This document shows, piece after piece, positions 10,468 through 63,532 of a stretch of DNA of 64,000 bases. The stretch spans positions 41,299,739 to 41,363,738 of the forward strand of contig NC_089749.1 in the NCBI RefSeq assembly GCF_040412425.1, in the 5' to 3' direction. The position numbers and the translations under genes were made by a program. The stretch's first letter is position 1, and each line of letters begins with the position of its first letter. The notes beneath the pieces were generated by a model. The model was not told the origin of the DNA and searched no databases. It was given only the letters and a program-made list of their open reading frames with translations. This DNA is from Macrobrachium rosenbergii (taxonomy: Eukaryota > Arthropoda > Malacostraca > Decapoda > Palaemonidae).

Positions 10468-10833
10468 GAGAGAGGTGCGAAATAATGAGCAGGAAGACAA
10501 GTACTGCTGGTTTATTGCTAAGAACTAGCTGCTTATACAGCAGGATGTGGAAGTCTGCGTAGTTTGTAGAGTCCGCTGGTAGCCTAAAAGATTTACAGGT
10601 GACCTGAGGTCAAACTAATTCCTTAAAAAACAGGACAGGTTCATACAGAGAACATAGTGATCAACAATGTCTGACATACGATATAAATAACTCGTTACTT
10701 GTACATACTACATGATAAATATAAAGACTGATCGACAATTAGGTCGATAAAATATTCTGATCGACCTTAGGTCAGAAAACACCGGAAAACGGATGTTCTC
10801 TCAGAGAACGCGTTGAGCGGGGACTTTACAACA
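10465..10833 (-). repeat. gypsy-1 3' LTR
   Basis: On the plus strand it begins TGTGAGAGAGGTGCGAAATA and ends GGGGACTTTACAACA. It matches 15445-15831 with scattered substitutions and small indels. Confidence 0.88.
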
Positions 10834-10839
10834 CTTCCC

Positions 10840-12256
10840 AAAGACGGAGGCAACGTCTGATTAAACCAGGTATCTGCTGGGGCGACGAAGGGGCCCTCCT
10901 TTCTTGATGTCAACTGAAGAGGGTGGTCACCTTCCCTGGTGTCCTCTGCAGTGGTTTGTTGAGATGCCTTTCCGTCAGGTTTCTGGATTTTCCGGGGATG
11001 CCCTCGCCTCCTTCCTGTGACCAGGGTTGTTTGAGGGGCTGCCGCATCCTGCAGGAGATCTTGGGGTCTGCCTTCATTGCCCCCTCCAGGAAAAGCAGGT
11101 TTGAGACGATCCATTGACACCCAGTCTTCCCGCCCATGGATGGTTATTTGGAATGCCTTCTTGTTCCTTTCCAGTACAAGGAAAGGTCCCCTGTAGGGGT
11201 TAGTCAAGGGTGGACGTACGGCATCGTCCCTGACGAAGACGTGGGTGGAGGAGAACAGCCTGGGGGGCATGAAGGGGGATGTCCTGTCAGTGAATGTCTT
11301 TTGGCAGGGGGTGAACTTTCCAACCCTGTCTCGGAGCCTCTGCATTCCTATGTCGTCCCTGTTCTCTGCGATGAGTTCCCCCATGGACTACCAGAGTCTC
11401 CCCGTAGACTTTTTCCGCTGAGGAGGGGTTGCCGTTGGCTCTGGGGGCCATCCTCAACCCGAGGAGGACCCAGGGCAGCTGGTACTTCCACTTTTCAGAG
11501 GAGCAACGAGCCATGAGGGACGCCTTCAGAGACCTATGGAACCTTTCCACCATTCTGTTGGCTGCGGGGTTGTAAGCGGTGGTGCTGTGGTGAGTGGCCT
11601 CATTAGATGTGGCAGGGCGGTCCATAGCTCGGACAGGAAAATGGGTCCCCTGTCTGTCGTTATGTCGTCTGGGACACCGAACTGGCTGATCCAGCTGGAG
11701 AGGAGGGCTTCCGCGCATGCACTGGAGGTGGCTTCTTCCATGGGTGTAGCTTCGGGCCACCTGGTGGGGCGGTTGATGACTGTCAGTAGGTATCTGGCTC
11801 CTCCTGATGGGGGAAGAGGTCCTACTATGTCGACGTGGATGTGCCCCAAGCATCTCTCTAGCTGGGGGAATTCGCTCACTTCCGATTCGATGTGCCGTCC
11901 TACTTTGCTTGTCTGACACTGCATACACTGTCTTGCCCAGGCCATCACTTCTTTCCGTATGCCATGCCAGACGAACTTCTCCATCAGCAGTCTGGCTGTT
12001 GTCCTTCCGGAGGGGTGGGACAGGCCGTGGATGATGTTGAAAACCAGCCGACATCTGGAGACAGGTACCAGGGGGCAGGGGTGTCCAGTACTGACATCGC
12101 TCAGTAATGTTGATCCTCCTGAGCTGAAGGGCACGCCTTCCACTTCAGCGACGTGACGGCTGTACGGTAGGCTGGGGTCTCAGGGTCAGCAGCCTGTTCA
12201 TGGGCGAGGTCTTGTAATCGATCCCAAGCTGTACGGAATCGATCTCGATTCTCGCG
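10840..12256 (-). pseudogene. gypsy-1 integrase (C-terminal part of pol)
   Basis: Minus-strand segments give the HHCC zinc-binding region (HGLSHPSG ... CMQCQTSK, about 12050-11920). The catalytic core follows: first Asp in HVDIVGPLP (about 11830), second Asp in DDITTDRGP (about 11660) and Glu in NRMVERFHRSLKASL (about 11540). After that comes a GPY/F-like segment (RPPLTNPYRGPF) and a basic tail rich in K, R and P. D, D and E are all present but lie in different frames (shifts near 11620 and 11300), so the protein cannot be made. Confidence 0.85.
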
Positions 12257-12670
12257 CAGAGGTTCCCAAACTTTTTGTTCCTCGGTACCCCTTGGGCATT
12301 TTTATAGGTTCCCATGTACCCCTAACACTAAAAATTAAGCTTAATATTAAAAAAGAACACTGACGCATCGGTAAACACGTCCTGTACCTGTCATTTCTGG
12401 ATTGGTACAGGTAGTCCTACAGATCTACACTGCAGATACAGCCATGTGAAATTTATAATAGTAAAACACAAATGGTATTACCTTACTCCCAATAAATTTA
12501 AATAAAAGTTGTGCTAATCAACATGAGGAAATTGAGAAAAGTGCAATCTGAGTGCAGATTACAACACCATGTAATGTACAGTAGTAATTATTTTCTTCAG
12601 ACCAAATGTACCCCCTGAAATGTGCAAATGTACCCCTGGGGGTACATGTACCCCAGTTTGGGAACCCCTG
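12257..12670. mobile_element. hAT-like MITE inside gypsy-1 pol
   Basis: The termini are CAGAGGTTCCCAAACT and, in reverse complement at the other end, CAGGGGTTCCCAAACT. The CAGNGG start and lack of coding capacity fit a non-autonomous hAT element. Tandem GTACCCC words occur near both ends. It separates the RNase H region from the integrase of gypsy-1; gypsy-2 has no insertion at the equivalent point. A clean 8 bp target duplication is not visible; only a short CTCGC is shared at the junctions. Confidence 0.75.
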
Positions 12671-12679
12671 AGCGAGGGC

Positions 12680-14480
12680 GTCGGCTACCAGGTTCTCCCT
12701 GCCAGGGAGGTATTTAATGGTGCAGGTGAACTCCGCTTCGTGAAGGCGTGGACCAGCAGCTGGTGGTCAGTCCAAATAGTGAAGGGCGTCCCCTCCATAC
12801 TGCCTGGTATACTGCAAGGAGTTCTCGGTCGAAGGTGCTGTCGCGGGACTCGGTGGAGTTTAACCTCCTACTGAAGAAGGCAATGGGTTGAGGGGTCCCT
12901 CTGATGACCTGTTCCAGGACTGCTCCACAGCGACGTTGCTGGCATCCGTCGTCAGCTGGACGGAAGCGCTGGGGTCCTGGTGGGCCAAAGATGTTGCTTT
13001 GGCAAGGGAGGCCTTCGTCAGGAGGAAAACCTCCTGCTGGTCAGGGCCCCACACTAAGGTCTTTGGACATCCCTTGAGGACCTCCATCAGGGGGACCATG
13101 GTGTGAGCAATCCCCAGGATGAATCTTCTGTAGTAGTTGACTATCCCGAGGAATTCTTGTACAGCCCTGATGGAGGTAGGGGTGGGGAACTTCTCGACAG
13201 CTTCGACCTTTGATGACATTGGGCGGACGCGGGGATATCTTGTGGCCCAGGAACTCCACCTTCTCGATGCTGAAGGTACATTTGTCAAACCTGACAACGA
13301 GGCCACTCTCCTGCACGCGCTGCGGGACCTTTCGGATGTGTCGCAGGTGTTCCTCCCGGGATCTGGAAAAGATTAAAATATTGTTGATGTAGCACACGCA
13401 GAAGTCCAGGTCCCCCAGGATGCTTTCCATCAACCTCTGGAAGGTTGCGCCCGTGTTTCTCAGGCCGCAGGTGGAGAAGGCGAAGACACAGGACCCGAAG
13501 GGTGTGACGATGGCGGTTTTGGCGATGTCCTCCAGCGCTACTGGGACCTGAAAATAAGATTTTAGTAGGTCCATTTTGGAGAATATCCTGGCCCCGTGGA
13601 AAGAGGCCGTCAGGTCCTGCATGTTCGGCAGAGGGTAGTGGTCCAGTTCTGTTGCCAGGCTCAGCTGCCTGTAGTCGCCGCAGGGCCTCCAGGTGCTGTC
13701 TGCTTTCTGCACCATGTGAAGAGGGGAAGCACATGGGCTGGGGGCCTTCTTGCATATGCCCATCCTTTCTATCTCTGCGAAGGCCTTTTTGGCCTCCTGA
13801 AGGCACTGCAGGGGAAACTGTCGGAACTTCGCGTGCGTCGGGGGACCCTTTGTCTTGATATGGTGGTATATCCTGTGTTTGGCAGGAGTCCCGGGCATCT
13901 GGTGGAGCCCAGGTTTGAAGACCTCCAGGAACTCCTTCAGGAGGGAACCATACTGGTGGGGCACAATGAAACAGATGGCGGGCTCCCTGGGGCACGGCGA
14001 CAAGGGCAGGGACTGGCAGGACTGGGTGTCCAGCAGGCGTTTGCCGCCGCCGTCGACTGCTAGACTGAAGTGGGCGAGGAAATCCGCCCCCAAGAGTGGA
14101 GTCCTGACATCCGCAATGATGAACTCCCAGCTGTACCTCCAGCCAAGGATGGAGATCGACAGGAGCTTGGTGCCGTAGGAGAGGATGGGGGACCCGTTTG
14201 CGGCCATCAGGCAGGTAGTTGGGGCCAGCGGTCATCTGCGGTCCTCTCCTGAAGGTGGAAACACCAAACATGTGGCTCCAGTGTCTACCAACATCATCCT
14301 GCCGGAGATCACATCACGGACGTAGAACCCTACTGGTAAGGGGCCCCTGGGTATTTTTGTTGTTGCTGCCATGGCGGCCTGTGGGGTTGGCCGCCGCCTC
14401 CTCCATTTTTTTGAAGGGAAGAAAGGGCAGGGGCTTCGCACCTCCGGGTGGCTCTCCTGAACCTCCGGTGGAAGTAGCAT
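12680..14480 (-). pseudogene. gypsy-1 protease, reverse transcriptase and RNase H (broken pol)
   Basis: Protease: GRMMLVDTGATCLVFP (active-site DTGA) at about 14300. RT: ELDHYPLPNMQDLTASF, KMDLLKSYFQVPV, TPFGSCVFAFSTCGLRN and, at the catalytic box, CVCYINNILIF. The usual Y-x-D-D has become YINN, so the polymerase site is lost. RNase H: LTTDASN near 12950 followed by a shift. Frames change at least three times. Protease follows gag through a -1 shift (see 14373-14411). gypsy-2 keeps YIDD at the same place. Confidence 0.88.
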
Positions 14481-18019: not shown

Positions 18020-18235
18020 TTCCCGAAGCCATTAGCGGACCCATACGGCGACTCAGTCTTGGCTTCAGGAGCTTACTCTCGCCCTTAGCAGACTAATCAC
18101 GGCGCTGAACCAGCATTTGGGTGTGCTGACTCTCGTTGGCAAAATCACCAGCGTCATTAGCGGACTCACATGGCGCGCTCCTAAGTGCGTTTTGACACGA
18201 GTACTCTACTCCATATAAGAGGGCAAAGAGCGAGT

Positions 18236-19085
18236 ATGGACGTGGACATCCACTCCCTCGTTCAATTAACTGCTGACCTCGTGGATTCGGAGGTCTACCT
18301 CCCTCCCATATCACCCGCGCCCGTCCCCGCGCCGAGGCTCTCACGCTCCTCCACACCCCTGCCCGTGCCCCGCACTCTCCCCAGGGCTGCCCTGTCCATA
18401 AAGTTGCCGCCGTTTACGCAGGGGAATCCATCGGCGTGGCTCTACAGGGTCGAGAGCCAGTTCAGGATTGCGGATCTTAACGACGAGGTGCTGCAGGTGG
18501 ATATAGTACTCAACACCCTGCCGGAGGATATCTACAGTAAGCTCATCCCATGGGTGTCTGAAGCATGCCCCCTTACCTACCACCTCTTGAAGAAAACCCT
18601 CCTCCAGACATGCTCCCTGCCGGTTGCCGAGCGGGCCGCCCGTGCCCTCGACCTCGCCATTAACCCATGGCAGGATCACAGCATCATGGAGTCATGGGGC
18701 ATGATCCGAAACCTCCTCACCATCCCAGACACCGACGGCAGTAAAAAGAAGCGCGAGATAAGCCTGTCGCGGGAGATCCTCCTCCGTCAGCTCCTCCCAG
18801 AGGTCCGCACAAATCCCAGAGCCCTACGCGATGCCCCTCGAAGACCTGATCATCTCAGCACAGCACTTGACGGACCCCATAAAGGCAACAAAGCTGGTAC
18901 CAGCGCCCACACACCCAGTCAGCGCCATCCAGCAGGAGGAGGGCGCAGAGGAAGAGGTCAACGTCGTCACCAGGAGGCGCCCAGCGCCTCCCAACAGGTG
19001 GAATTCCCTGGGTCTTTGCCACTACCACAGGCGGTTCGGCAAAGACGCCCGGAACTGCCTGCTGCCCTGTTCAGTCGCCTGTTGA
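18236..19085 (+). pseudogene. gypsy-2 gag
   Basis: The most likely start is MDVDIHSLVQLTADLV at 18236, because an upstream ATG at 18185 lies closer to the leader. The capsid region reads LPPFTQGNPSAWLYRVESQF ... LLKKTLLQTCSLPVAERAA, typical of Ty3/gypsy Gag. Near 18812 a one-base change moves the frame; the continuation (MPLEDLIISAQHLTD ...) leads to a zinc-knuckle-like LCHYHRRFGKDARNC and ends at TGA 19083-19085. That TGA sits where gypsy-1 has CAA, just inside the frameshift heptamer. So this copy has one frameshift plus one premature stop. Confidence 0.85.
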
Positions 19086-19123
19086 AAAAACGGGGGAGGG
19101 GGCGGCCAGCAGGACAGGCCGCC
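19085..19123 (+). promoter_or_regulatory. Candidate -1 ribosomal frameshift signal, gypsy-2 gag/pol
   Basis: Heptamer A AAA AAC (19085-19091), 9-base spacer, then GGCGGCC (19101-19107), a 9-base loop and GGCCGCC (19117-19123). The -1 product enters the protease frame (LLKKRG). Stem, spacer and loop lengths are identical to gypsy-1, while the loop sequence differs. In this copy the zero frame already stops at the TGA overlapping the first A. Confidence 0.68.
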
Positions 19124-19660
19124 ATGGCAGCACAAGAACCCAGGGGCCCAGAACCAATAGGCTTCTACGTCCGCGACACCGTCTCTGGCAGGATGATGCT
19201 GGTCGACATAGGGGCCATTAGATCAATCTTCCCGGCATCTAGAGAGGACCGCAAGCGGGAACCGGACCCGGCTGCCTCCCTGACGGCCGCCAATGGGTCC
19301 CCCATCCTCTCCTACGGAACCAGGCTCCTGTCGATCTCCATCCTTGGCCGGAGGTACTTCTGTGACTTCGTCGTCGCGGATGTTAGGACCACTCTCCTGG
19401 GTGCGGATTTCCTGGCGCACTTTGGGCTGGCAGTCGACGTCGGTTGGAAACGCCTCCTAGATACAGACTCCTGCCAGTCCCTCCCGTTGGCAAGGGGACC
19501 AAGGCGCCCACCATCTGCTCTGCTGCCCCCCACCAGTACTCGCAGCTGCTGACGGAGTTCCCTGACGTGTTCAGGCCCGAGCTCCGCCAAAAGTCCGGGG
19601 CCCCAGCCAAACATGGCATATATCACCACATAAAAACAAAGGGGCCCCCGGCACATGCGA
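19092..19660 (+). pseudogene. gypsy-2 aspartic protease region
   Basis: In the -1 frame: PIGFYVRDTVSGRMMLVDIG (active-site triad DTG changed to DIG), the flap region, and the second conserved block LLGADFLAHFGLAVD near 19400. The Thr-to-Ile change would be expected to abolish activity. Past 19490 the frame shifts to the ORF starting 19444, which reads PHQYSQLLTEFPDVFRPEL, the usual protease-to-RT linker. Confidence 0.82.
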
Positions 19661-21573
19661 AGTTCAAGGAGGCTTGCCCCTCAACGCCGTCAGGAGGCCA
19701 AGGACGCATTCGCCGAAAAGGAACGGATGGGAATCTGCAAGAAGGCCTCCAGCCTGTGGGCCTCCCCCCTCCACATGGTGCAGAAACCGGACGGTTCCTG
19801 GAAACCCTTCGGCGACTACAGGCGACTCAACCTGGCAACGGAACTTGACCATTATCCCCTGCCGAACATGCAGGACCTCACGGCCTCCTTCCACGGGGCC
19901 AAAATATTTACTAAGTTGGATCTCTTAAAATCCTATTTTCAGGTACCAGTCGCGCCAGAGGATATACCAAAGACTGCCATCATCACACCTTTCGGGTTCT
20001 GTGTGTTCACCTTCTCTACATTCAGCCTGAGGAACGCTGGGGCGACTTTCCAGCGGCTCATGGACAGCATCCTGGGGGACATAAAGTTCTGCGTCTGCTA
20101 CATAGATGATATCCTTATATTTTCCAGGTCCCACAAGGAGCACCAGAAACATATCCGGGCAGTCCTGCAGCACCTGCAGGAGAACGGCCTCGTTGTACGT
20201 TTTGACAAATGCACCTTCGGCGTACAGAAGGCCGACTTCCTGGGCCATGAGGTATCCCAAGAGGGCGTCCATCCGCTCACATCCAAAGTCGCAGCTGTCA
20301 CCATGTTCCCCGTCCCCACCTCCGTCAAGGCCGTCCAAGAATTTCTCGGGATGGTGAATTACTACAGGAGGTTCATCCCCGGGATCGCACACACCACGGC
20401 CCCTTTGAAGGAGACCCTGAAAGGCCGACCAAAATCCTTGTTGTGGGGACCCAGCCAGCAGCAGGCCTTCAACCTGACGAAGGCTGCCCTCGCTGAGGCA
20501 ACCGCCTTGGCCCACCAGGATCCCAGTGCCCCCCTCCAGCTGACAACGGATGCCAGCAACATTGCCTGTGGTGCTGTCCTGGAACAGGTCATCAACAGCG
20601 CCCCCCAGCCCATCGCCTTCTTCAGCAAGAAGTTCAACCCCACAGAGGCCCGCTACAGCACCTTCGACAGGGAACTCTGCGCAGTGTACCGTGCAGTCCG
20701 GCACTTCAAGTTCCTCCTGGAGGGCCCACCCTTCACAATCTATACGGACCACCAACCACTAGTCCACACCTTCACCAAGCAGGGGGACGCGTGGTCCTCT
20801 AGGCAGCAACAGCATCTCTTGGCCATCGCTGAGTTCACCTGCTCCATCAAGTACCTCCCCGGCAGGAAAAACCCGGTGGCAGACGCCCTCTCCAGGGTCG
20901 AGCTGAATGCGTTGCAGCTGGGAATCAACTACGAAGACCTCACCAGGGAGCAAGCCGCCGACCCAGAGACCCCAGCCTACTGCACCGCCATCACATCCCT
21001 AAAGTGGAGGGACGTGCCCCTCGCCCCCGGGGGCCCAAATCTCCTCTGCGACGTCAGCACCGGTCAGCCCCGCCCCCTAGTGCCAGCCTCCCACCGCCGC
21101 CAGGTATTCGACATCATCCACGGCCTGTCACACCCCTCCGGCAGGACGACGGCCAAGCTGCTGTCAGAGAAGTTCGTCTGGCATGGAGTGCAGAAGGACG
21201 AGAGGACCTGGGCAAGACCGTGCCTGCATTGCCAAATCAGCAAGGTGGGGTGGCACACCGAATCCAGGGTAGGCGAGTTCCCGCAGCCAGGGCGGCATTT
21301 CGGCCATGTGCACATCGACATCGTCGGGCCCCTTCCCCTGTCAGGCAGGTCCAGATATCTCCTGACGGTGGTAGACTGCTCAACAAGGTGGCCCGAAGCC
21401 ACGCCAATGCAAGAAGCCACCTCCAGTGCCTGCGCCGAGGCCCTACTCTCCAGCTGGATCAGCTGCTTCGGTGTCCCTGATTACATCACGACCGACATTG
21501 TGGTCCGCCCTGGTCCAGCTGCTGGGGACAGCTCATCACACCACCACGGCCTACAACCCAGCCGCCAACGGCT
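19655..21573 (+). pseudogene. gypsy-2 reverse transcriptase, RNase H and integrase N-terminal half
   Basis: A 641-codon open frame. RT: GICKKASSLWASPLHMVQKP, TELDHYPLPNMQDLTASF, KLDLLKSYFQVPV and the intact catalytic box CVCYIDDILIF. RNase H: LTTDASNIACGAVL (D), FDRELCAVYRAVRHF (E), FTIYTDHQPL (D), all present. A tether/chromodomain-free linker leads to the integrase zinc region (HGLSHPSG...CLHCQISK) and core HIDIVGPLP. Shortly after YITTD the frame breaks by a small deletion relative to gypsy-1 (RGP... is missing), and the frame then runs out of phase to 21573. Apart from the ends this is the best preserved polymerase in the window. Confidence 0.9.
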
Positions 21574-22241
21574 TGGTTGAGCGTTTCCACAGGTCCCTGA
21601 AGGCGTACCTTATGGCCCGCTGTACCACCGAGGACTGGAAGTGCCAGCTGCCGTGGGTCCTCCTCGGGTTGATAACCGCCCCCAGGGCCGACGGCGGCCC
21701 TTCCGCGGCCGATAAAACCTACGGTGAGCCCCTCGTGGTCCCGGGCGAACTAGTGACAGAGGATCGCCACAACCCATCGGTCCAGAGGCTTCGCGAAATC
21801 GTCGGCAAGTTCGCCCCCTACAAGAGAACATATACCAACAGGTCGGCCACCTTCACGCTGCCCGGGCTGGCCTCCACTACCCACGTCTTCGTCAGAGATG
21901 ACACTGTCCGCCCGCCACTGACCAGGCCCTACAAGGAGCCCTTCCACATGCTGGAGCGGAACAGCAAGGCATTCCTGCTCGCACTCCACGGGAGGAACGA
22001 TTGGGTGTCAGTTGACCGGGTCAAGCCTGCCCTCCTGGAGGAGGACACAACCGCCAGCACACTGCACCTTCTGCTGGTGCAGCCACCGCCACAACCGGGC
22101 CCTCACAAGAAGCGGAAACGCGGCCACCCCCGGAAAAGGCCGCCCACACCCACATTCAGCCACCCTCGCACACAGGACGTCCCTCCGTTGTCCTCACGCA
22201 GCCGGGGCACTCTTCAACGCCCCTGCAGATACGACGATTAA
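21500..22241 (+). pseudogene. gypsy-2 integrase C-terminal half
   Basis: It continues the integrase in another frame: TTAYNPAANGLVERFHRSLK holds the catalytic Glu. Then come WKCQLPWVLLGL, a GPY/F-like RPPLTRPYKEPFHMLERN and a basic proline-rich tail (KKRKRGHPRKRPP). It stops at TAA 22239-22241, about 20 bases before the polypurine tract. Confidence 0.85.
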
Positions 22242-27379: not shown

Positions 27380-28064
27380 CTACAAATAAAAAATTATATT
27401 AAACAAATGAATATATAGAAAATATATATAAAGTAACTGGTTTCTAATTAAGTCAGTGATTTTATCTTTTATGTCATTCTTGAACATTCTTCTAATACAG
27501 GGGTCCAAATAATACATGCCAGGGCTAAGATTAAAATTACAACTGGAAGTAAGCTGTATAATAGCAGATTCTAAAAGATTTCTTGAAGAGAAATCTTTCG
27601 CTCTGGCAATCACTGAACTTTCAGTCCAATTTATCCTGTGAGAGTTTTCACTTAAATGAATGAATATAGCATTGGATGTTTGCCCAGTTTTGACAGAATA
27701 CTTATGTTGTTTAATCCGTACATCTAAATCCTTGCTTGAATGACTGATATAAAAAGAGGGGCAGTCCAAACATAGAATTTTATATATTACGTTGTTGTTT
27801 TCCTTGGGTTTTTTTTATCAACATTCCTTTAGTGTGTTATTATAGGAAAAAACAAGGTTGACATTAAAAGATTTTAGAAATGATTTTATGCTTTCAGAGC
27901 CACTAAAATAAGGCACATTAAGACTGTTCTTAGGGGTTTCTTTCTCCATGTTACTTCCACTATAAACTTTTTGTGGGCTTTAATATAACAAATACCCAGT
28001 ATATGTGAAGCATAACATAAATCTGTCCCTATTTTTCTTATGTATTCGATTTCTTGATCCAGAT
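27380..28064 (-). pseudogene. Penelope-like element PLE-2, 3' part (GIY-YIG)
   Basis: On the minus strand YLDQEIEYIRKIG (near 28040) and a shifted KETPKNSLNVPYFSGSESI give the linker region. After a frame change comes YKILCLDCPSFYI...VRIKQHKYSV, a GIY-YIG module in which the first glycine motif is degraded. ENSHRINWTES is the usual downstream block. Frameshifts near 27950 and 27810 disable it. It is the other half of the RT segment at 32335-33264; a LINE sits between them. Confidence 0.8.
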
Positions 28065-28115: not shown

Positions 28116-31105
28116 TCAGTGTGAGGCACCTTTGATGTCTACCAGAGAGTTGCTAACGCATCTTCCGGTATATTTTGCATCTTCCAGTCTTGGATGGTCT
28201 GGGATGCATCTTAGATATTTGTCGAGCTTATTCTTAAACACATCTACGCTCACTCCTGTTATGTTCCTCAGATGAGCTGGTAGCGCATTGAATAGAAGCT
28301 GCATTATCGATGCTGGTGCGTGGTGGATTAATGTCCTGTGTGCTTTCCTTAATTTTCCTGGTATAGTTTTTGCACTATTAATCTACCTCTGCTTGCTCTT
28401 TTGATAATTTTAGTTCCATGATGTTTTCGGTAATTCCTTCTATCTGTTTCCATGCTTGAATTACCATGTAGCGTTCTCTTCTCCTTTCAAGACTATATAA
28501 ATTTAAGAATTGTAGTCTTTCCCAGTAGTCAAGGTCCTTAACTTCTTCTATTCTAGCTGTAAATGACCTTTGTACACTCTCTATTTGTGCAATATCCTTT
28601 TGGTAGTGTGGGTACCATATTATATTGCAATATTCAAGTGGACTACGTACGTACGTTTTATAAAGCATAATCATGTGTTCAGCTTTTCTTGTTTTGAAGT
28701 GCCGGAACAACATTCCCATTTTTGCTTTGCATTTTGCCAATAGAATTGCTATTTGATCATTGCATAACATATTCCTATTCAACATCACACCAAGGTCTTT
28801 AACTGCTTCCTTGTTTGTGATTGTCTCATTATTAGGTCCTTTATATGCATATAGCATTCCTACTTTATCACCATAGTTCATTGATTCAAATTTATCAGAG
28901 TTAAATACCATCCTATTTATCTCTGCCCATTTATATATTTTGTTTAGGTCTCTTTGTAGCGAGTTCCTATCTTCATCACAAGCAATTTCTCTACTTATTC
29001 TTGTGTCATCTGCGAAACTTCTTTACTACTGAGTCCTTAACATTACTGTCTATGTCTGCAATCATAATCACAAACAGCAATGCAGCTAACACCGTACCCT
29101 GTGGTACACCGGATATTATCGTAGCTTCATCCGATTTCTCATCGTTTGCAATCACTATCTGTTTTCTGTTTTGCAAAAATTCTTTTATCCATCTTCCTAC
29201 TTTGTCAACACTGTTATGTTTTCTAATTTTTTTTGCTAATATATTATGATCTACCTTGTCAAAAGCTTTTGCAAAGTCTAGGTAAACCACATCTGTATCT
29301 TTTTCATTTATCATATTTTTATATATGCTTTCATGGTGGACTAACAGTTGGGTTTGTGTACTTTTTCCGGGTACAAAACCATGTTGTCCTATATTGAACA
29401 ATCTATTTTTCATTAAATGTTTCATTATATTTTTTTTCATTACCCTTTCATATACTTTCATAATATGAGATGTCAGACTCACAGGCCTATAATTACTTGC
29501 CTCTAGTCTTGAACCACTTTTGAAAGTAGGAGTAATATATGCTAATTTATGCTCATCATAAATCTTGCCTGTATCTATACTTTGTCTTAATAATATTGCT
29601 AGTGGCTTTGCGATTGAATGAACCACTTTCTTTAACAATATGGCAGGTACTCCATCTGGTCCTGCTGCTGATCCATTTTAATTTCATTAATAGCCTGCAC
29701 AATATCGGCCTCTGTAATATCTATATCTGATAAGTATTCAGTATTTTCATCTCTTATTTCTGTATCATTATCTTCATTGTCAATTCTAGGTGTAAATTCA
29801 CTCTTATATCTTTCTGCAAATATGTTACATATTTCCTTTTTTTTCATTCGTTAATCGCCCTTCAGTTCTTAGAGGGCCTATTTCTACTCTTATTTTATTC
29901 ATCTTTTTGCATATGAATAAAAATTTTTAGGGTTTTGCTTGATATTTTGTAGTGTCATTTCTTCTAAGTTCCATTTTTCATTTTCTTTTGATTGTATAAT
30001 CTTTTGTTCTGCATTTTCTATCTTACTTTTTAGTTCCATCACTTTCCATGCATTCTTTTCTTTTGCAAGAGCTTTTTCCACTTTCTAATTTTCTGGAACA
30101 AGATCCTTCTGTCTCTTGGAATTCGTGACTGATGATTACTTTTTTCTTCGGTATATATTTTTCCAATATTTCCTCTAATATTTTATATAATATATCGGTA
30201 TTTACCTGTATATCATCACTTACAAATATGTTTTCCCATTCTTTGTTTAATTCTTCATTTATTTTTGACCAATTTATATTCTTACTATAGAAATTGTATT
30301 TTCCATATCCTTCCCATTTTTTTCGTCTCTTGCTTTTCTGTTTTTGTATGTTCTGGAACGGACTGTTAGTTCTATGACATTATGGTCCGAAATACTCGTG
30401 TTATATACTATTATTTCTTTAACATAGTTCACCTCATTCACAAATACTAGGTCTAAAATATTATCCTTTCTTGTTGGTAGGTGATTTATTTGCTGAATGT
30501 TATGTTCTAGTAGCATATCTAATAGCTTTTCAAATTGCCTCTTATCTTCTGCACTACTATTGCTCTCTTTTTTATATGTATAAATACAACCACAGTCTCC
30601 TATTCGTTCTTTCCATTCTACAAAAGGAAAGTTAAAGTCTCCGTTAGGAGTATAGTCCAGTCCTTGTGATTTCTACATATTTCATCCAATTTTTCAATTA
30701 TTATGTCAAACTCTTTAGTATTAGGGGTCTATATATTACAATGTTCACTAATTTTTCAGATTCAAATTCTACCGCTATTAATTCACATTCTGTGTTACTA
30801 TATTTCTCACAGATTTTTCCTTGATTGGCATCTCTCCCATATATCGCAGTTCCCCCTTGATTTCTATTTTTTCTATCTGATCTATAAGTTTGGAAACCCT
30901 TTATCTGGTCATCATTACCAGTCTCTTGGGAATACCAGGTTTCACTTATATTCAATATTTCTATTTTTTCATTTTGGGTTAGTTCTTCTAAGAACTCTAT
31001 CTTTCTTTTTGAGTTACTCAAAACTAAACCCTGTGCGTTCATCACTATGATGGTTTGCGTATTATCTCCATTATCTAATATGGGTAATAATAAGGATTTT
31101 CCCAT
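28116..31105 (-). pseudogene. LINE ORF2: AP endonuclease and reverse transcriptase
   Basis: Endonuclease: MNAQGLVLSNSKRKIEFLEE, ILNISETWYS (catalytic Glu), GGTAIYGR, GDFNFP (near 30640), and SISDHNVIELTV (terminal S-D-H). RT: LAYITPTFKSGSRLEASNYRPVSLTS, KVYERVMKK, GFVPGKSTQTQLL, VVYLDFAKAFDKVDH, SGVPQGTVLAALLF, then FADDTRIS at 29016-28995, reached only by a frameshift. C-terminal: SPLEYCNIIWYPHY and LFNALPAHLRNITGVSVDVF...FKNKLDKYL. The catalytic Asp residues survive, but there are about six frameshifts or stops. The pattern fits the CR1/L2/Jockey group. Confidence 0.88.
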
Positions 31106-31234
31106 GTCTCTTTCCTGTTCTGATATGTTGATCTTTTTTTCATTTCCAGAAATTCGTACATTAAAAAATCCAACTTTTCCATTATATTTGATCTTCCAGC
31201 TTCATATTTATTCACTTTGTGCATAAACCTGCAC

Positions 31235-32334: not shown

Positions 32335-33264
32335 TAAAAACATAAAAGAAGAAATGGATATTTTGATATTATGGTGATGGTCTGAATAAAAATGGACATA
32401 AGTTATGTTGTTGGTTGGCTTCCTATAAATACTGAATTTGCATTGAAATGGTTCTCTATGTATTAAGACATCCAAGCAAGGGAGGCAGTTGTCTTTTTCT
32501 AATTCTAAAGTGAACTTAATGGTTATTCAAATTAGAGGGCAAATCATTTACATCAATTCCAGCAGGCAAAACAGCTAGAATATCATCAACATATCTATAC
32601 CACTTTAAAGCAATATAAATGATATCAGGTAAATATCGTTTTTCAAAGAATTCCATATACAAGTTTGAGAGGAGTGGAGATAAAGGGTTGGTCATTGCCA
32701 TACCAAATATTTGTTGGTAAAATTCACCATTATATATAAACTTACAATCACAAATGCGCAACCTAGTGAGTGAAATAATATGACTTACAGGTAGAGGTAA
32801 TTCATGACGGATTAGTTCATTACTAAGATACTCTAAAATAGAATCTATAGGGACTTTAGTAAAAAGAGAACAAACATCAAAACTAATGAATCTATCAGTG
32901 GGGCAATTATATATATGAGAATCGGAGATAGTTCCAAGTAACGGGGACAAGAGCTTGGTAATATATTTCAAAAGTTTATATGCTATTGAGCCAACACTAC
33001 TGATGATAGGCCACATAGGATTATTATCCGTGTGCATTTTTACTAATCCTTACAAGTAAGGTAACGAGGGAAATTTTACTGACAACTGACCTATTAGTTC
33101 TTTTTTTATTTTTGAGGATTTCTTCAGTGCTATTGAAATTTTTTTATGTCTTGATCAAGGGGATTTTTTTTTAGTTTATGTAAGTCGTATCATCATCCAG
33201 CAGGACTTGCATACGTGATATGCAGTCAGCTTTATCTAGAATTACAATACTGTTCGACTTATCA
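32335..33264 (-). pseudogene. Penelope-like element PLE-2, 5' part (RT)
   Basis: On the minus strand: PIISSVGSIAYKLLKYITKL, then FISFDVCSLFTKVPIDSILE (first catalytic Asp), then GEFYQQIFGMAMTNPLSPLL, LYMEFFEKRYLP, and KWYRYVDDILAV (YVDD intact). The start of the thumb follows (CLPCLDVLI, YRKPTNNITYVHFYS, FMFLRALC). The ORF up to 33037 is open for 173 codons; it then stops and shifts. In GMAMG the last Gly is changed (GMAMTN). It joins the 3' half at 28064 once the LINE is removed. Confidence 0.85.
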
Positions 33265-58408: not shown

Positions 58409-58871
58409 TTAGGCTATGACACAAGCAGCACTTCCTTCATCTTCAATAACAGGTAAATCTTTCTGGCTACTTGTTAATTCTTCTGAAGATGAATCAAATG
58501 ATGCCTCTTCTGGAAGAGTCTCTACAGTACCTGAACTTTGTCGGGGCATGAGAGACATCTTTGGGACATTTGTTGTTAGCGGTGCCAACGATGACGGTTG
58601 CTGTTGTTGGAACGTTGGGGATTGTTGTAGCTGCTGGCTTGGCAGAAGGGGCTGCTGCTGATTTGCCTGATGTGATGGCGGAGGGGGTGTCGTCTTCACA
58701 GATGACCTAAGAATAGAATCTTGGCTTGGGGAGGGCTCGGACTCATGGCTTGTAGAGGGAGGACGGGAAGAGGGAGGACTGGGAGTCCTTGATGTTTCAC
58801 GAGTACTGGCTAACCGTTCCAAAACTTTCACTTGCCCCATTATTGCTCCAAGAAAGTTTTGATAACCCAAA
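58409..58871 (-). CDS. Terminal coding exon of an unidentified host gene
   Basis: On the minus strand a textbook acceptor (TTTGTTTTCCTTTTTTAG, AG at 58873-58872) precedes the frame LGYQNFLGAIMGQVKVLERL, which runs 153 full codons to TAA (58411-58409). The first base completes a split codon. After a short helical, possibly amphipathic start, the peptide is disordered in type: S/P-rich (SRTPSPPSSRPPSTSHESEP), then Q/P-rich (QQPLLPSQQLQQSP; FQQQQPSS), then acidic (ETLPEEASFDSSSEELTSS), ending DEGSAACVIA. Low complexity of this kind plus the splice site suggests a real C-terminal tail. I do not recognise the protein. Confidence 0.62.
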
Positions 58872-59609
58872 CTAAAAAAGGAAAACAAAGACTTTTAACT
58901 ATTTTTGCATCAACATTCCACTGCTGATATGCATGAAATAATGTTGGGCGATACCCATGTCTCTTTCATTTATTATGACGTGGCACATTGTAGATGGTAC
59001 TTTAGATTCCTTGTAATGGCCCTCCTGCCCAGCTGCACTGCTTTCTGTCTTTTACTTTTTATCTGTTCCCTTTGGTCTCTTCCCACTTAGCTATCCCACT
59101 TCTTCAACTTTACCTTACTCCAATTTTCATCTTTCATTTATTCTTAACGTCCTGATGATGTCATCTGATTTCCAGAAGTGGATATTCTGATGACAGTAGT
59201 GACATCGACAGAAAAATTTTTAATTGTAGTTGTTAATTAGGGTACAGGTTTACAATTCTTTATTCATGATTCTAAAATCCAAAAAGTTCAAAACCAACAT
59301 TCTTTTTTGTAAAGGGAAGTTTCCACTTTTAAATGTCAAATACAGTACTGTATTACAGTTGTACTTAAAAAAATTACAATTTTAATATCTATTTTACCTC
59401 CTATATACAATCATATTGCATATATTATCATCACAGTATTAGAATATAAAATAAGGATATTGCAAACATGTAACATTTGCAGTCTGGTAATAAGTCCATT
59501 CTCAAATCATCAGCTGACTGAGTTTCATCACCATCATCATTGCCATGTGCTGCTAAATGATAGCTGATTGAGTACTACCAACATTCTCACTGCCATTAGT
59601 TCTAGGCGG
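58872..59609 (-). other. Probable intron upstream of the terminal exon
   Basis: It begins at the acceptor above and contains no other exon I can support. The TIR element at 59610 would then lie inside this intron, in the opposite orientation to the gene. Confidence 0.4.
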
Positions 59610-59768
59610 GTCAAAATATGAAAAAAAGGGGGTCAACCCCAACAAATTGCTAGAAATTGTTTTTGCTTGTTTTTGGTTTCCTGATATCTGTAGATTAACA
59701 TACTAAAAGTCTACCAAGATTGGACTACCGGAAAGTGGGTAAAATTGGGTCAGTTCAAAGATGGGCGC
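59610..59768 (+). repeat. Left terminal inverted repeat of the FEN/PIN element
   Basis: Contains GTCAAAATATG, an A/G-rich insertion, CAACCCC, AAATTGCTAGAAATTG, AAAAGTCTACCAAGATTGGA, CTACCGGAAAGTGGG and AAGATGGGCGCC. It aligns by eye to the reverse complement of 62841-62990 with an insertion of about 10 bases near 59622. Confidence 0.7.
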
Positions 59769-59999
59769 CAAAATTTGAAAATTCATTGAATATGTTTCCT
59801 TATCGATAACTCGGTCATTTTCACCCAAAAACAAATAAAGTAAGAATGTTTTCCTATGTTTTTGAGTTTGTTCTTTCAATTGGAATTGGTTTTTATTTGG
59901 GTGTGGTCATGCCGTGGGGGTGCATTGAGGGTACCCTACCCCAAAATGGAATTTTGTCGGTTTCATAGGGAAGTATTTGTCCTCAAATCTAGTCCAAAC

Positions 60000-60125
60000 T
60001 GGCAAAACAATGCCTTTTCATTTGTTTTGTTCCTCTGTGTCTCTACAACTATACATCAAAAGTTTACCAAAATTGGAGGGCTTGAAAGCGGGCAAAATTG
60101 AGCTTATTCCAAGATGGCCGCTGTG
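60000..60125 (+). repeat. Subterminal direct copy of the TIR inner segment
   Basis: AGTTTACCAAAATTGGAGGG, CTTGAAAGCGGGCAAAATTG and AAGATGGCCGC correspond to the left TIR's inner 60 bases, about 350 bases further in and in the same orientation. Confidence 0.6.
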
Positions 60126-60219
60126 TTGAAATGACCCTCGGACTTAGTTTTCATTCCTTGACTTGCACAAAACATGCCTGTTTTTTTAAGTATTCATTTT
60201 ATCTTAACTCAGATTCACT

Positions 60220-62097
60220 TAGACATATAGGATGTCAGGACCATTTGGACACTGTCATCGTCCGTCTCTTTCGACATACAATCTTGCGATGCAAGAGTTC
60301 ACAGAACTATCATTTACTTCCAGTGAGCAACATAAAGAATCAACAACACCAAGGATACAAAGAGATCAAGAAGACAGTGTGAAACTCCTGCAGAAACTTC
60401 TTGACTGCAACCCATTCTCCAAAGATTCTGAATTAAGAAATGTTGTGACTGGGGTAGTGGCCAATGAAGATGTTAATGTGCATGAATATGAAGCTGTGGG
60501 CAAAGCGATAGTACAGAAAATGATCGGCCAGCCAATATTTACCTATTCCTTTAAACGAAAGGATAAAGTCAAAACTCTTGGCTACTCTTCGTCAGTGAAA
60601 GTTAATGCCGATCAAGTGATCAATCCTGAACTCCTATTTCAAAGATTTCTTGTTGTGTCACAAGCTGGGGATTTAACATTACAGGATATTATGGACTATG
60701 AACTCAGTCCATATCCTCCCACTCTTTTTGAAGCCAAACACGTTTTTCAGAAAGCAGACAAGCCTCAGTTGGCCGAGGCTCTACGTGATTTTGTGAGTCA
60801 ATCCTCTAGTAATGCTGTGATTACAGAATCGATACCTGAATCTGAACATTTTGTTCTTGATGGAGGATCTCTCCTGCATCGCTTATCATGGAAAAGTGGG
60901 ATCAGCTACGGCAAAATTGCTGAAGAATATGTCAATTTCACTTTTTCCAGGTATGGAATGGCTACCGTAGTTTTGATGGATACAGTGGTGAGCCCAGTAT
61001 CAAGGACAATGAACACCAGAGGCGACAACGTAAATCACACCAAGTGGTGCGTTTTGACTCAACACTGTTTTTTCAGGGAGAATGGAGGACTTTTTGTCTA
61101 ATGGTTGCAATAAACAACAGATGATCAACCTGATCTGCGACAAACTGAAAGACAGGGGATGTGAAGTTATCCATGCACATGGAGATGCAGATGTTGACAT
61201 TGTCAAAGCTGCAGTGGCATCTGCAAAACACAGAGACACAACTTTAGTTGGAGAAGACACGGACCTTCTAATTCTACTTTTATACTATACAGAAAGGGAA
61301 AGCAAAAAGCTCTATTTTCGATCGGACAAACTGAAATCTAAGTATGTTTACGATATCTGTTCTCTGAAAGAACTCCTAGGATGTGAAGTTTCCAGGCAGT
61401 TGCTTTTTGTACATGCGTTTACAGGTTGTGACAGCACATCAAGAATTTTTGGTATTGGTAAGAAGGCTCTATTTCAAAAATTGATCAAACGTGACTCTGT
61501 CATTAAGTCATGTGCGGCAGTCTTCACCACAGCAGATCAGGAATTGTCCACGATTGTTGATTCTGGATGCAAAACTTTTGTTTCTTTGTATGGAGGAAAA
61601 GTTGGGACACCCCTGGCAAACCTACGAAACACCTTGCTTGCGAAAAAAGTATCATCTGCAAAGTCATTTGTAAAACCCGAGAAGCTGCCGCCAACAGTAT
61701 CTGCTGCCAAGTACCACTCACTACGCACATTTTATCAGATCATTGTGTGGATGGGAAAAGACGGAATGATGGACCCAAAGAACTGGGGTTGGAAACAGGA
61801 AGATAGCTTTTGTTGCCAGTTATGACAGACCAGAAGCCAGCTCCTGAAAGGCTACTTAAAGTGATTCATTGTAACTGTACATCTGGCTGTTGTAATACAC
61901 GTTGTAGTTGCAGGAAGTGCGGTCTTCCATGTACATCCGCATGTGGACCTTGCCAAGCCGATCTTGTTTCAACCCAAATAATGAATGTACAGGGGACCCT
62001 GACGCAGATGCTGATGACAACCGTGCAGACAGTGCTGTATTTTAAACCACAATGTTGTGAGCAGAACACTGGCATAAAGGCATTTAAAATTGGTTGA
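60220..62097 (+). pseudogene. FEN/PIN-nuclease-like plus CXC-domain protein (disrupted, 5'-truncated)
   Basis: The frame from 60232 encodes YNLAMQEFTEL, a helical stretch (CNPFSKDSELRNVVTGVV; KRKDKVKTLGYSS; ELLFQRFLVVSQ), then the start of the nuclease fold with HFVLDGGSLLHRLSW (first Asp). A base loss near 60973 and a second shift near 61080 separate this from the next frame (61082-61825): HAHGDADVDIVKAAV, LVGEDTDLLILLL, HAFTGCDSTSRIFGIG. These acidic blocks are those of FEN/XPG/Asteroid-type PIN nucleases. It continues KLPPTVSAAKYHSLRTFYQI and WGWKQED, then a shift near 61815 to CNCTSGCCNTRCSCRKCGLP (CXC/tesmin-like Cys cluster). I know this as the C-terminal third of a widespread unnamed invertebrate protein; the N-terminal part is missing. 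Confidence 0.75.
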
Positions 62098-62840
62098 TGT
62101 TAGTATTAACTTTCTGTTTAAGTTGTGTTTCCGCTATGCAATTATGTCATAATACCGGACCATCTCATAATTAACTGATGAAGCAGAAGACTAAACTCGG
62201 TTAGTCTAAGGGTGAGGGGAGGTTGAGGATTGTTCAGGTTGTTGGCATCACTCATGTATTCTTTCAGAGGTCATTATGCCAATTTACCTTGGCGTTTTAG
62301 TCTCTTGAGGAGGGGAGGGGTTAATGGAGAGACTAACAAGTTAAGTTTTGTGTGGCATCAGCTGATTTTGAGATGGTCCCTAACGTCATGTGTTTATCTT
62401 TTGTGTCACATGGAAATCATAATCCATAACTTATCAGAGTCTATGGGATGTCATATTTTAGTTCATCGAAAGTCAATATTAACCAAATGTTACAAGGTTT
62501 GACACCATGTATGACAAGTAGTGTATATTGCATGGCTTATAACTGTGACGTATGATCATGAGGGTGAGGGTGAGGCCTTTCAAATTTCTGGTACCCATGG
62601 TATTTTTTCATTCAGATTAATTATGAGGGGTCAATATTTGGGTTTACTGCAATTTTTACTGTCCCGAACTACAAATCAACATTTTACGTCATTATGGCGT
62701 AATATTACGTCACAGGCTTGTCTAATGATGTAATCATTATCTCATTTGAATCTTAGCTATCATATTTATATGTGTTTGTAATACATTTATGGGGTCTAAA
62801 ACCAGCCATTTAGAAGTTTGCTGTTCATTAATTGTTCATC
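62098..62840 (+). other. 3' non-coding part of the FEN/PIN element
   Basis: Between the last gene remnant and the right TIR. Short ORFs here have no recognisable content. Several GTCATTATGGCG/TTACGTCA-like words lie near 62690-62710. Confidence 0.35.
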
Positions 62841-62990
62841 GGCAGCCATCTGGGATATTATGTAATTTTACCACTTTCCGGTTGACCAAATTTGGTAGAC
62901 TTTTGGGATGTACTAAAGTAGCCCCATACAAACCAAAATAACCAAAAAATGTTTTCTAGCAATTTTTTGGGGGTCAAATCCTATTTTGAC
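62841..62990 (-). repeat. Right terminal inverted repeat of the FEN/PIN element
   Basis: Reverse complement begins GTCAAAATAGGATTTGACCC and runs through AAAAAATTGCTAGAAAACA, AAAAGTCTACCAAATTTGGT, CAACCGGAAAGTGG to CCAGATGGCTGCC. Confidence 0.7.
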
Positions 62991-63051
62991 TTGACTATTC
63001 CTAAATGAAGCATAATTCTGAGATAGATTTTTATCATAAATTAAAAAAGCT

Positions 63052-63532
63052 GGGTAAAAAACAGGTTTTGACATGGGAAAAACCTATTTTTGGTAGTTGC
63101 TGTTGAGTCCTCAAGGAGTTACCTTCCATGGTCTACCAGAGCTCCATGGTGACCAAACTAATATCAAAGAATTCTCTCTAGTTGGTCTTTTGGCCAGGTA
63201 TTGTGTTGTAATGATTAACATTATAACACATGATAGAGTATATAATGGACTCAAAGATAAGAGGGCACTTTCCCTTATCTTCAGTGAAGCTGAACCCAGT
63301 TTTCCAACGTCAAAAGAACCTGCAAGAGAAGTGACTATTACACATGCGCATCCGCCTTCTTGTTTACAACCAGGCTGTTAAAAGACCAAGGAGCCATTAC
63401 TCTCTGTTGTTCAATGCAGGTTGATCCCTTGCCCAAATCCCATGCCTTTTCATCAGGGAAGTGGGAGGTTTTGAGAACTCAACAGTGGCTACCAAAAATA
63501 TCTTTTTCCTACGTCAAAACCTGTTTTTTGAT
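63052..63532. mobile_element. About 480 bp MITE-like element with 55 bp TIRs
   Basis: Left end AAAAAACAGGTTTTGACATGG...ATTTTTGGTAG...CTGTTGAGT (63052-63107). The right end is its inverted counterpart (63477-63532: ACTCAACAG...CTACCAAAAATA...CGTCAAAACCTGTTTTTT). No coding capacity; the ORF at 63097-63381 has no recognisable motif. A direct repeat TTGCTGTT..GTCCTCAAGGAG occurs just inside the left end (63094-63117) and just outside the right end (63538-63561). Confidence 0.65.

Follow-up and report, generated by a model that had tools for sequence, protein, structure and literature searches.

A broken FEN-type nuclease gene in Macrobrachium rosenbergii lies within a mobile terminal inverted repeat transposon family that likely belongs to AcademX

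A 64,000-nucleotide stretch of the genome of the decapod Macrobrachium rosenbergii (NC_089749.1, positions 41,299,739 to 41,363,738 of the forward strand; "the window", whose positions are used throughout) carries a broken gene for a FEN-type nuclease between imperfect terminal inverted repeats (TIRs). This gene and its repeats very probably make up a dead, non-autonomous, cut-and-paste TIR transposon, derived from a parent of ~6 kb that encoded one large protein, for which AcademX, a lineage of the Academ superfamily, is the best assignment. From the N-terminus, the parent protein would consist of Cys zinc-finger blocks, a probable DDE transposase with a D...D...E arrangement, a FEN/XPG-type nuclease and a Cys-rich, CXC-like tail. 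Mobility of the family is shown by target site duplications (TSDs), an empty site and many near-identical copies. A preliminary description made from the window alone had proposed that the nuclease gene is part of a class II element, and the TIRs, the TSDs and the bracketing of the gene by the repeats in other copies support this.

The whole element occupies 59603-62997 on the plus strand (3,395 bp), with the ends TAGGCGGGTCAAAATA... and ...TATTTTGACTTGACTA. These limits are based on where the similarity of genomic copies stops and on the TSDs that fit there, recognised by flank comparison: a TTC at 59600-59602 on the left and a TTC at 62998-63000 on the right. The left TIR (59603-59790, plus strand) and the right TIR (62824-62997, minus strand; found by blastn against the window and by genome search) are real, although imperfect, and their ends are corrected here to 59603 and 62997. 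When the element is compared with the window by blastn, 59622-59790 pairs with the reversed 62824-62987 at 69% identity over 173 columns (E 9e-17). The local score of the pair is 86, as against a best score of 32 among 500 dinucleotide-shuffled pairs. Among random 350-base pieces of the window, 5 of 2,000 pairs exceed 86 (with overlaps between pieces and the window's other repeats left in), so equally strong repeats are present elsewhere in the window. A 27-base TIR pattern, with up to three mismatches allowed, occurs in the 64 kb only at the two TIR sites. The inner part of the left TIR also recurs subterminally in direct orientation, with 60015-60121 (plus strand) aligning directly with 59660-59768 by blastn (69%, E 1e-8). 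Genomic copies largely agree on the boundaries. The left end falls exactly at 59603 in 12 of the 19 copies that have one (59586-59608 in the others), and the right end exactly at 62997 in 14 of 20 (up to 63006 in the others). Within the element, the 3' non-coding part holds a further inverted repeat (62157-62379, 51-column arms, 78% identical); it recurs at this position in 16 of 20 retrieved copies and is thus not a private insertion.

What is the evidence that the family moves? Copies were searched for in the assembly, which measures 3.18 Gb. With the right TIR as query, 72 candidates led to 40 scored matches; 5 of these are to left ends and 35 are right ends, counting that of the window and a partial one (90/150 bases). 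Identity is at least 97% for 24 of the 35 right ends. TIR copies elsewhere do flank the nuclease gene: among the FEN matches listed, one lies on the same strand within 4 kb of 30 of the 35 right ends, the window's included. Where no FEN match is listed, the right end on C26 (locus L022) nevertheless belongs to a copy that is 80% identical to the window over 60460-62997, FEN part included; the right ends on C10, C7 and C15 have the transposase half nearby; and the partial right end on C24 has neither half among the matches listed. Twenty copies were retrieved, and both ends are in hand for 20 elements, that is, for 19 of these plus the window copy (the stretch retrieved for L015 shows no left end). 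The proposed target duplication was found, with identical 3-bp flanks in 18 of these 20 and 16 different triplets represented. L018 has a possible 4 bp TSD (TAAT) and L012 has none, while L017 and L025 sit in simple sequence, so that their matching flanks carry little weight. An empty site can be reconstructed for L026, which interrupts a Gypsy-like gene (reverse transcriptase) that is itself broken elsewhere. Joined minus one ATA, the 60-bp flanks of L026 form an open run of 40 codons (MEELLGDLPFCMFYIDEILIFSPNLKQH...) matching the Gypsy copy in the window, and FYIDEILIFSP reads in frame across the junction, as it does in the window's own copy. The family is also multi-copy, as had been expected. 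A genome search with the FEN piece (149 scored of 2,706 candidates) yields at least 152 matches from 30% identity upward, several of which may be one locus.

The gene in the window consists of four frame-shifted open pieces on the plus strand. The first (60223-60966) holds the linker that follows the transposase part and then the FEN block LDGG (~60856-60867), and the second, in another frame (60967-61060), holds the block FDGY (~60972-60983). The third (61079-61807) contains GDADVD (61181-61198), GEDTD (61250-61264) and GCDSTS (61424-61441), and profiles of its relatives match Exonuclease 1. Thus, the acidic blocks noted in the preliminary description do occur in the order expected of a FEN nuclease, spread over three open frames. 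The fourth piece (61870-61953) is the Cys-rich tail, with similar tails in L029, L033, L034, L036 and L037. Its spacing is CXC-like by eye, but no match to the Pfam CXC (tesmin/TSO1-like) models was reported for it. The copy had also been called a 5'-truncated, frameshifted derivative. The frameshifts stand, but "internally deleted" describes it better than "5'-truncated" given that this copy retains its left TIR as well as ~0.6 kb of subterminal DNA on that side. The deletion junction lies at ~60230, where other copies carry extra sequence. The window copy begins just past the E block, which the sister copy L019 retains, and the transposase part was therefore lost by internal deletion. Its whole subfamily looks like a set of non-autonomous derivatives moved by a protein from elsewhere, because no element passes a test for an intact FEN gene: in 0 of 21 subfamily elements (20 retrieved plus the window copy) does one frame hold all three marker strings. 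This test used exact strings in frames of at least 100 aa, so diverged copies such as L022 could escape it; L015 entered it with a 3' piece only and L026 without its FEN half.

The nature of the parent can be read from longer relatives. A query with one of these gives 61 genome matches (47 scored of 5,953 candidates) from 30% identity upward. Nine relatives were selected by protein match and long frames, independently of any TIR, and TIRs nevertheless surround the gene in 8 of the 8 that can be tested (131-446 bp, 71-87% identical, E ≤3e-23). The ninth, L035, reads N on its left side and is outside this count. By comparison, such a TIR pair (120 bp, E 1e-20, span 2.7-6.5 kb) was found in 3 of 60 random, overlapping 7.5-kb pieces of the window. 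Most ends of the relatives have the form TAG...CTA, with L034 and the right end of L031 as exceptions. Read by eye, 5 of the 7 relatives with both ends visible have a TSD, of 3 bp in L029, L030, L036 and L037 and of 4 bp in L032; L031 and L034 show none. Six relatives span ~5.2-6.0 kb (the left end of L033 lies beyond the retrieved stretch), and L036 and L037 are derivatives of ~3.2 kb.

The alignment shows the following parts in the proteins of the longer relatives: two Cys zinc-finger blocks, DNxD, TFDQPLY, IEQ, the FEN blocks and the Cys tail. TFDQPLY and IEQ are present in all 8 rows that cover them. In DNxD, the second Asp is kept in 6 of 7 rows (the L034 row is out of frame there) and the first in 4 of 7. 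Judged from these motifs, the D...D...E part is probably a DDE transposase, and fold searches with it returned no significant match. A single frame runs from the E block through the FEN part to the tail in each of L029, L033, L034 and L036, and in L031 one frame covers the zinc fingers and continues beyond the E block. Because these frames overlap, the zinc-finger, D...D...E, FEN and tail parts can be joined into one fused protein. The idea that fuller copies encode a longer protein thus holds for the relatives by way of overlapping frames, but no retrieved locus has all four parts in one frame.

The same two halves can be found within the window's own subfamily. A locus on C74 (L038 and L015; C74:5458725-5464999), ~98-99% identical to L026 and to the window copy, has all the parts within 6.3 kb: a left TIR, the zinc finger, D, D, E, the FEN part and the 3' part. 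The last 2 kb at the 3' end are inverted, which places the right TIR in the interior of the locus, and the outermost ~20 bases of the left TIR are absent. Two adjacent insertions could be proposed here rather than one inversion; against this, the two pieces are nearly complementary, with ~40 bases lost between them. The transposase half occurs at 96% identity or more at only 4 places in the genome, C74 included. L026, on C10, has the same TIRs and keeps the zinc finger and D...D, with its FEN part gone. L026 and the copies on C7 and C15 complement the FEN-only copies, since they have the transposase half near a right TIR that has no listed FEN match.

The nuclease of the relatives is a member of the FEN/XPG superfamily, as judged from its blocks, which are in order, and from detectable homology. 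FEN profiles match Exonuclease 1 at E 2e-6 and 9e-9, the sole matches below 0.01, and Exonuclease 1 is also the best solved-structure match for a single relative (E 0.09). D137, D139, D164, D166 and D217 are invariant across 9 alignment rows. The FEN-type identity first suggested by the acidic blocks is borne out by both lines of evidence. The family differs from Exonuclease 1, FEN1 and XPG in that its nuclease belongs to a mobile element and forms one protein with a transposase-like part and a Cys-rich tail. Purifying selection appears to act on the parents and not on the copies. Specifically, replacement differences (pN) between lineages are 0.28-0.52 against 0.67-0.79 at silent sites, whereas replacement and silent differences are about equal (0.098, 0.102) between the sister copies L033 and L034, both of them dead. 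Because silent sites approach saturation, the contrast can be trusted in its direction only.

To which superfamily does the element belong? In the Academ superfamily (Repbase), elements of the AcademX lineage have a nuclease of XPG type and a Cys8 finger. Kojima is said to have described this lineage in 2020. The family described here resembles AcademX in being a TIR DNA transposon with a nuclease, a TSD of 3 (sometimes 4) bp, a size of ~5-6 kb and a probable DDD/E transposase. No difference was found, the two being compared by description only, and the window copy is itself a 3.4 kb deletion derivative. One source gives TSDs of 9 or 10 bp for AcademH and of 3 or 4 bp for AcademX, and links them to the encoded helicase and nuclease (PMC10045372). 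If the element is indeed an Academ transposon, AcademH is another lineage of its superfamily, but the helicase and the 9-10 bp TSDs given for it there are unlike the family here, where TSDs are 3-4 bp and no helicase family was reported in the proteins of the five relatives scanned (not every locus covered). Curated bivalve Academ elements have a mean length of 5,565 bp, and Academ is almost limited to bivalves among the animals examined (PMC10294476), a distribution that neither fits nor excludes AcademX. Because a nuclease with 3-4 bp TSDs, together with the size, fits AcademX as that lineage is described, the assignment is likely, resting on description and not on protein sequence. The impression in the preliminary description that proteins of this type had no accepted transposon assignment is on the same grounds not supported, and "undescribed" is probably wrong for the element. 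The hAT transposase of Hermes is not claimed as a relative, since its alignment ends before the E at 521 and there is no sequence match. TSDs of hAT elements are 8 bp, unlike the 3-4 bp of this family.

A TIR superfamily that is truly undescribed, not Academ, in which a FEN nuclease is fused to the transposase, is unlikely, as is the stronger proposal that such a superfamily, distinct from Academ, would use a fused FEN/EXO1-type nuclease as an obligatory strand-processing step of cut-and-paste transposition. Novelty would be consistent with the lack of any Pfam model over the cut-off, of any phage record and of a solved structure for the single window piece. A literature search also gave no paper joining Academ and XPG, although this has little weight because the main paper on AcademX and AcademH was outside its scope. 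These points are set against the tie of AcademX to a nuclease and to 3 or 4 bp TSDs in PMC10045372, the listing of Academ as encoding a DDD/E transposase, and the fit to the mean bivalve length given above.

The numbers of the two halves in the genome bear on two further explanations. FEN is found at 30 of the 35 right ends, among the matches listed, and the transposase half at 4 places, with C74 in both counts. This excess might mean that the FEN gene is host-derived cargo caught by an unrelated transposon. Such an origin is extremely unlikely and was already disfavoured: in the diverged relatives L029, L033, L034 and L036, FEN shares one frame with the transposase-like E block, the C74 locus holds both halves within one subfamily, and the motif test finds an intact FEN gene in none of the 21 subfamily elements. 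Alternatively, the FEN half could persist in deletion derivatives because it helps them to move, for example in cis, rather than by chance. This is very improbable, given that the FEN frames of the retrieved subfamily copies are broken by the same test and that the excess is explained by a single deletion derivative that arose early and was successful.

A working scheme for transposition can be proposed. The D...D...E part would make the cuts, and the tail and zinc fingers would bind DNA. The nuclease may itself act in transposition by trimming flaps or gap intermediates when the element is excised or inserted. Derivatives like the window copy would be moved by protein supplied from fuller relatives.

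The surroundings of the element contain other repeats. Just outside it, at 63056-63529, is a 474 bp unit resembling a miniature inverted-repeat transposable element, with 59 nt arms that are 86% complementary. Two coding regions of Gypsy-like retrotransposons can be recognised by eye at 10767-14313 (minus strand) and 18185-22241 (plus strand), each of them broken up over several frames. Coding fragments like those of non-long terminal repeat and Penelope elements, also seen by eye, lie on the minus strand at 28378-31201, 27380-27814 and 32516-33049, the latter two resembling GIY-YIG and reverse transcriptase pieces. A possible host exon is a Ser/Pro/Gln-rich open frame of 161 aa (58409-58894, minus strand), which lies ~0.7 kb to the left of the element.

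What are the implications of these findings? A large family of FEN/CXC proteins, known to the preliminary description only as uncharacterised entries in invertebrate databases, gains an identity as mobile-element proteins through the TSDs, the empty site and the bracketing by TIRs. Annotations in which these proteins are counted among the host genes would need masking. Moreover, a FEN-type nuclease lies in one frame with a presumed transposase and is apparently under purifying selection between lineages, which makes the role of a flap-type nuclease in transposition directly testable.
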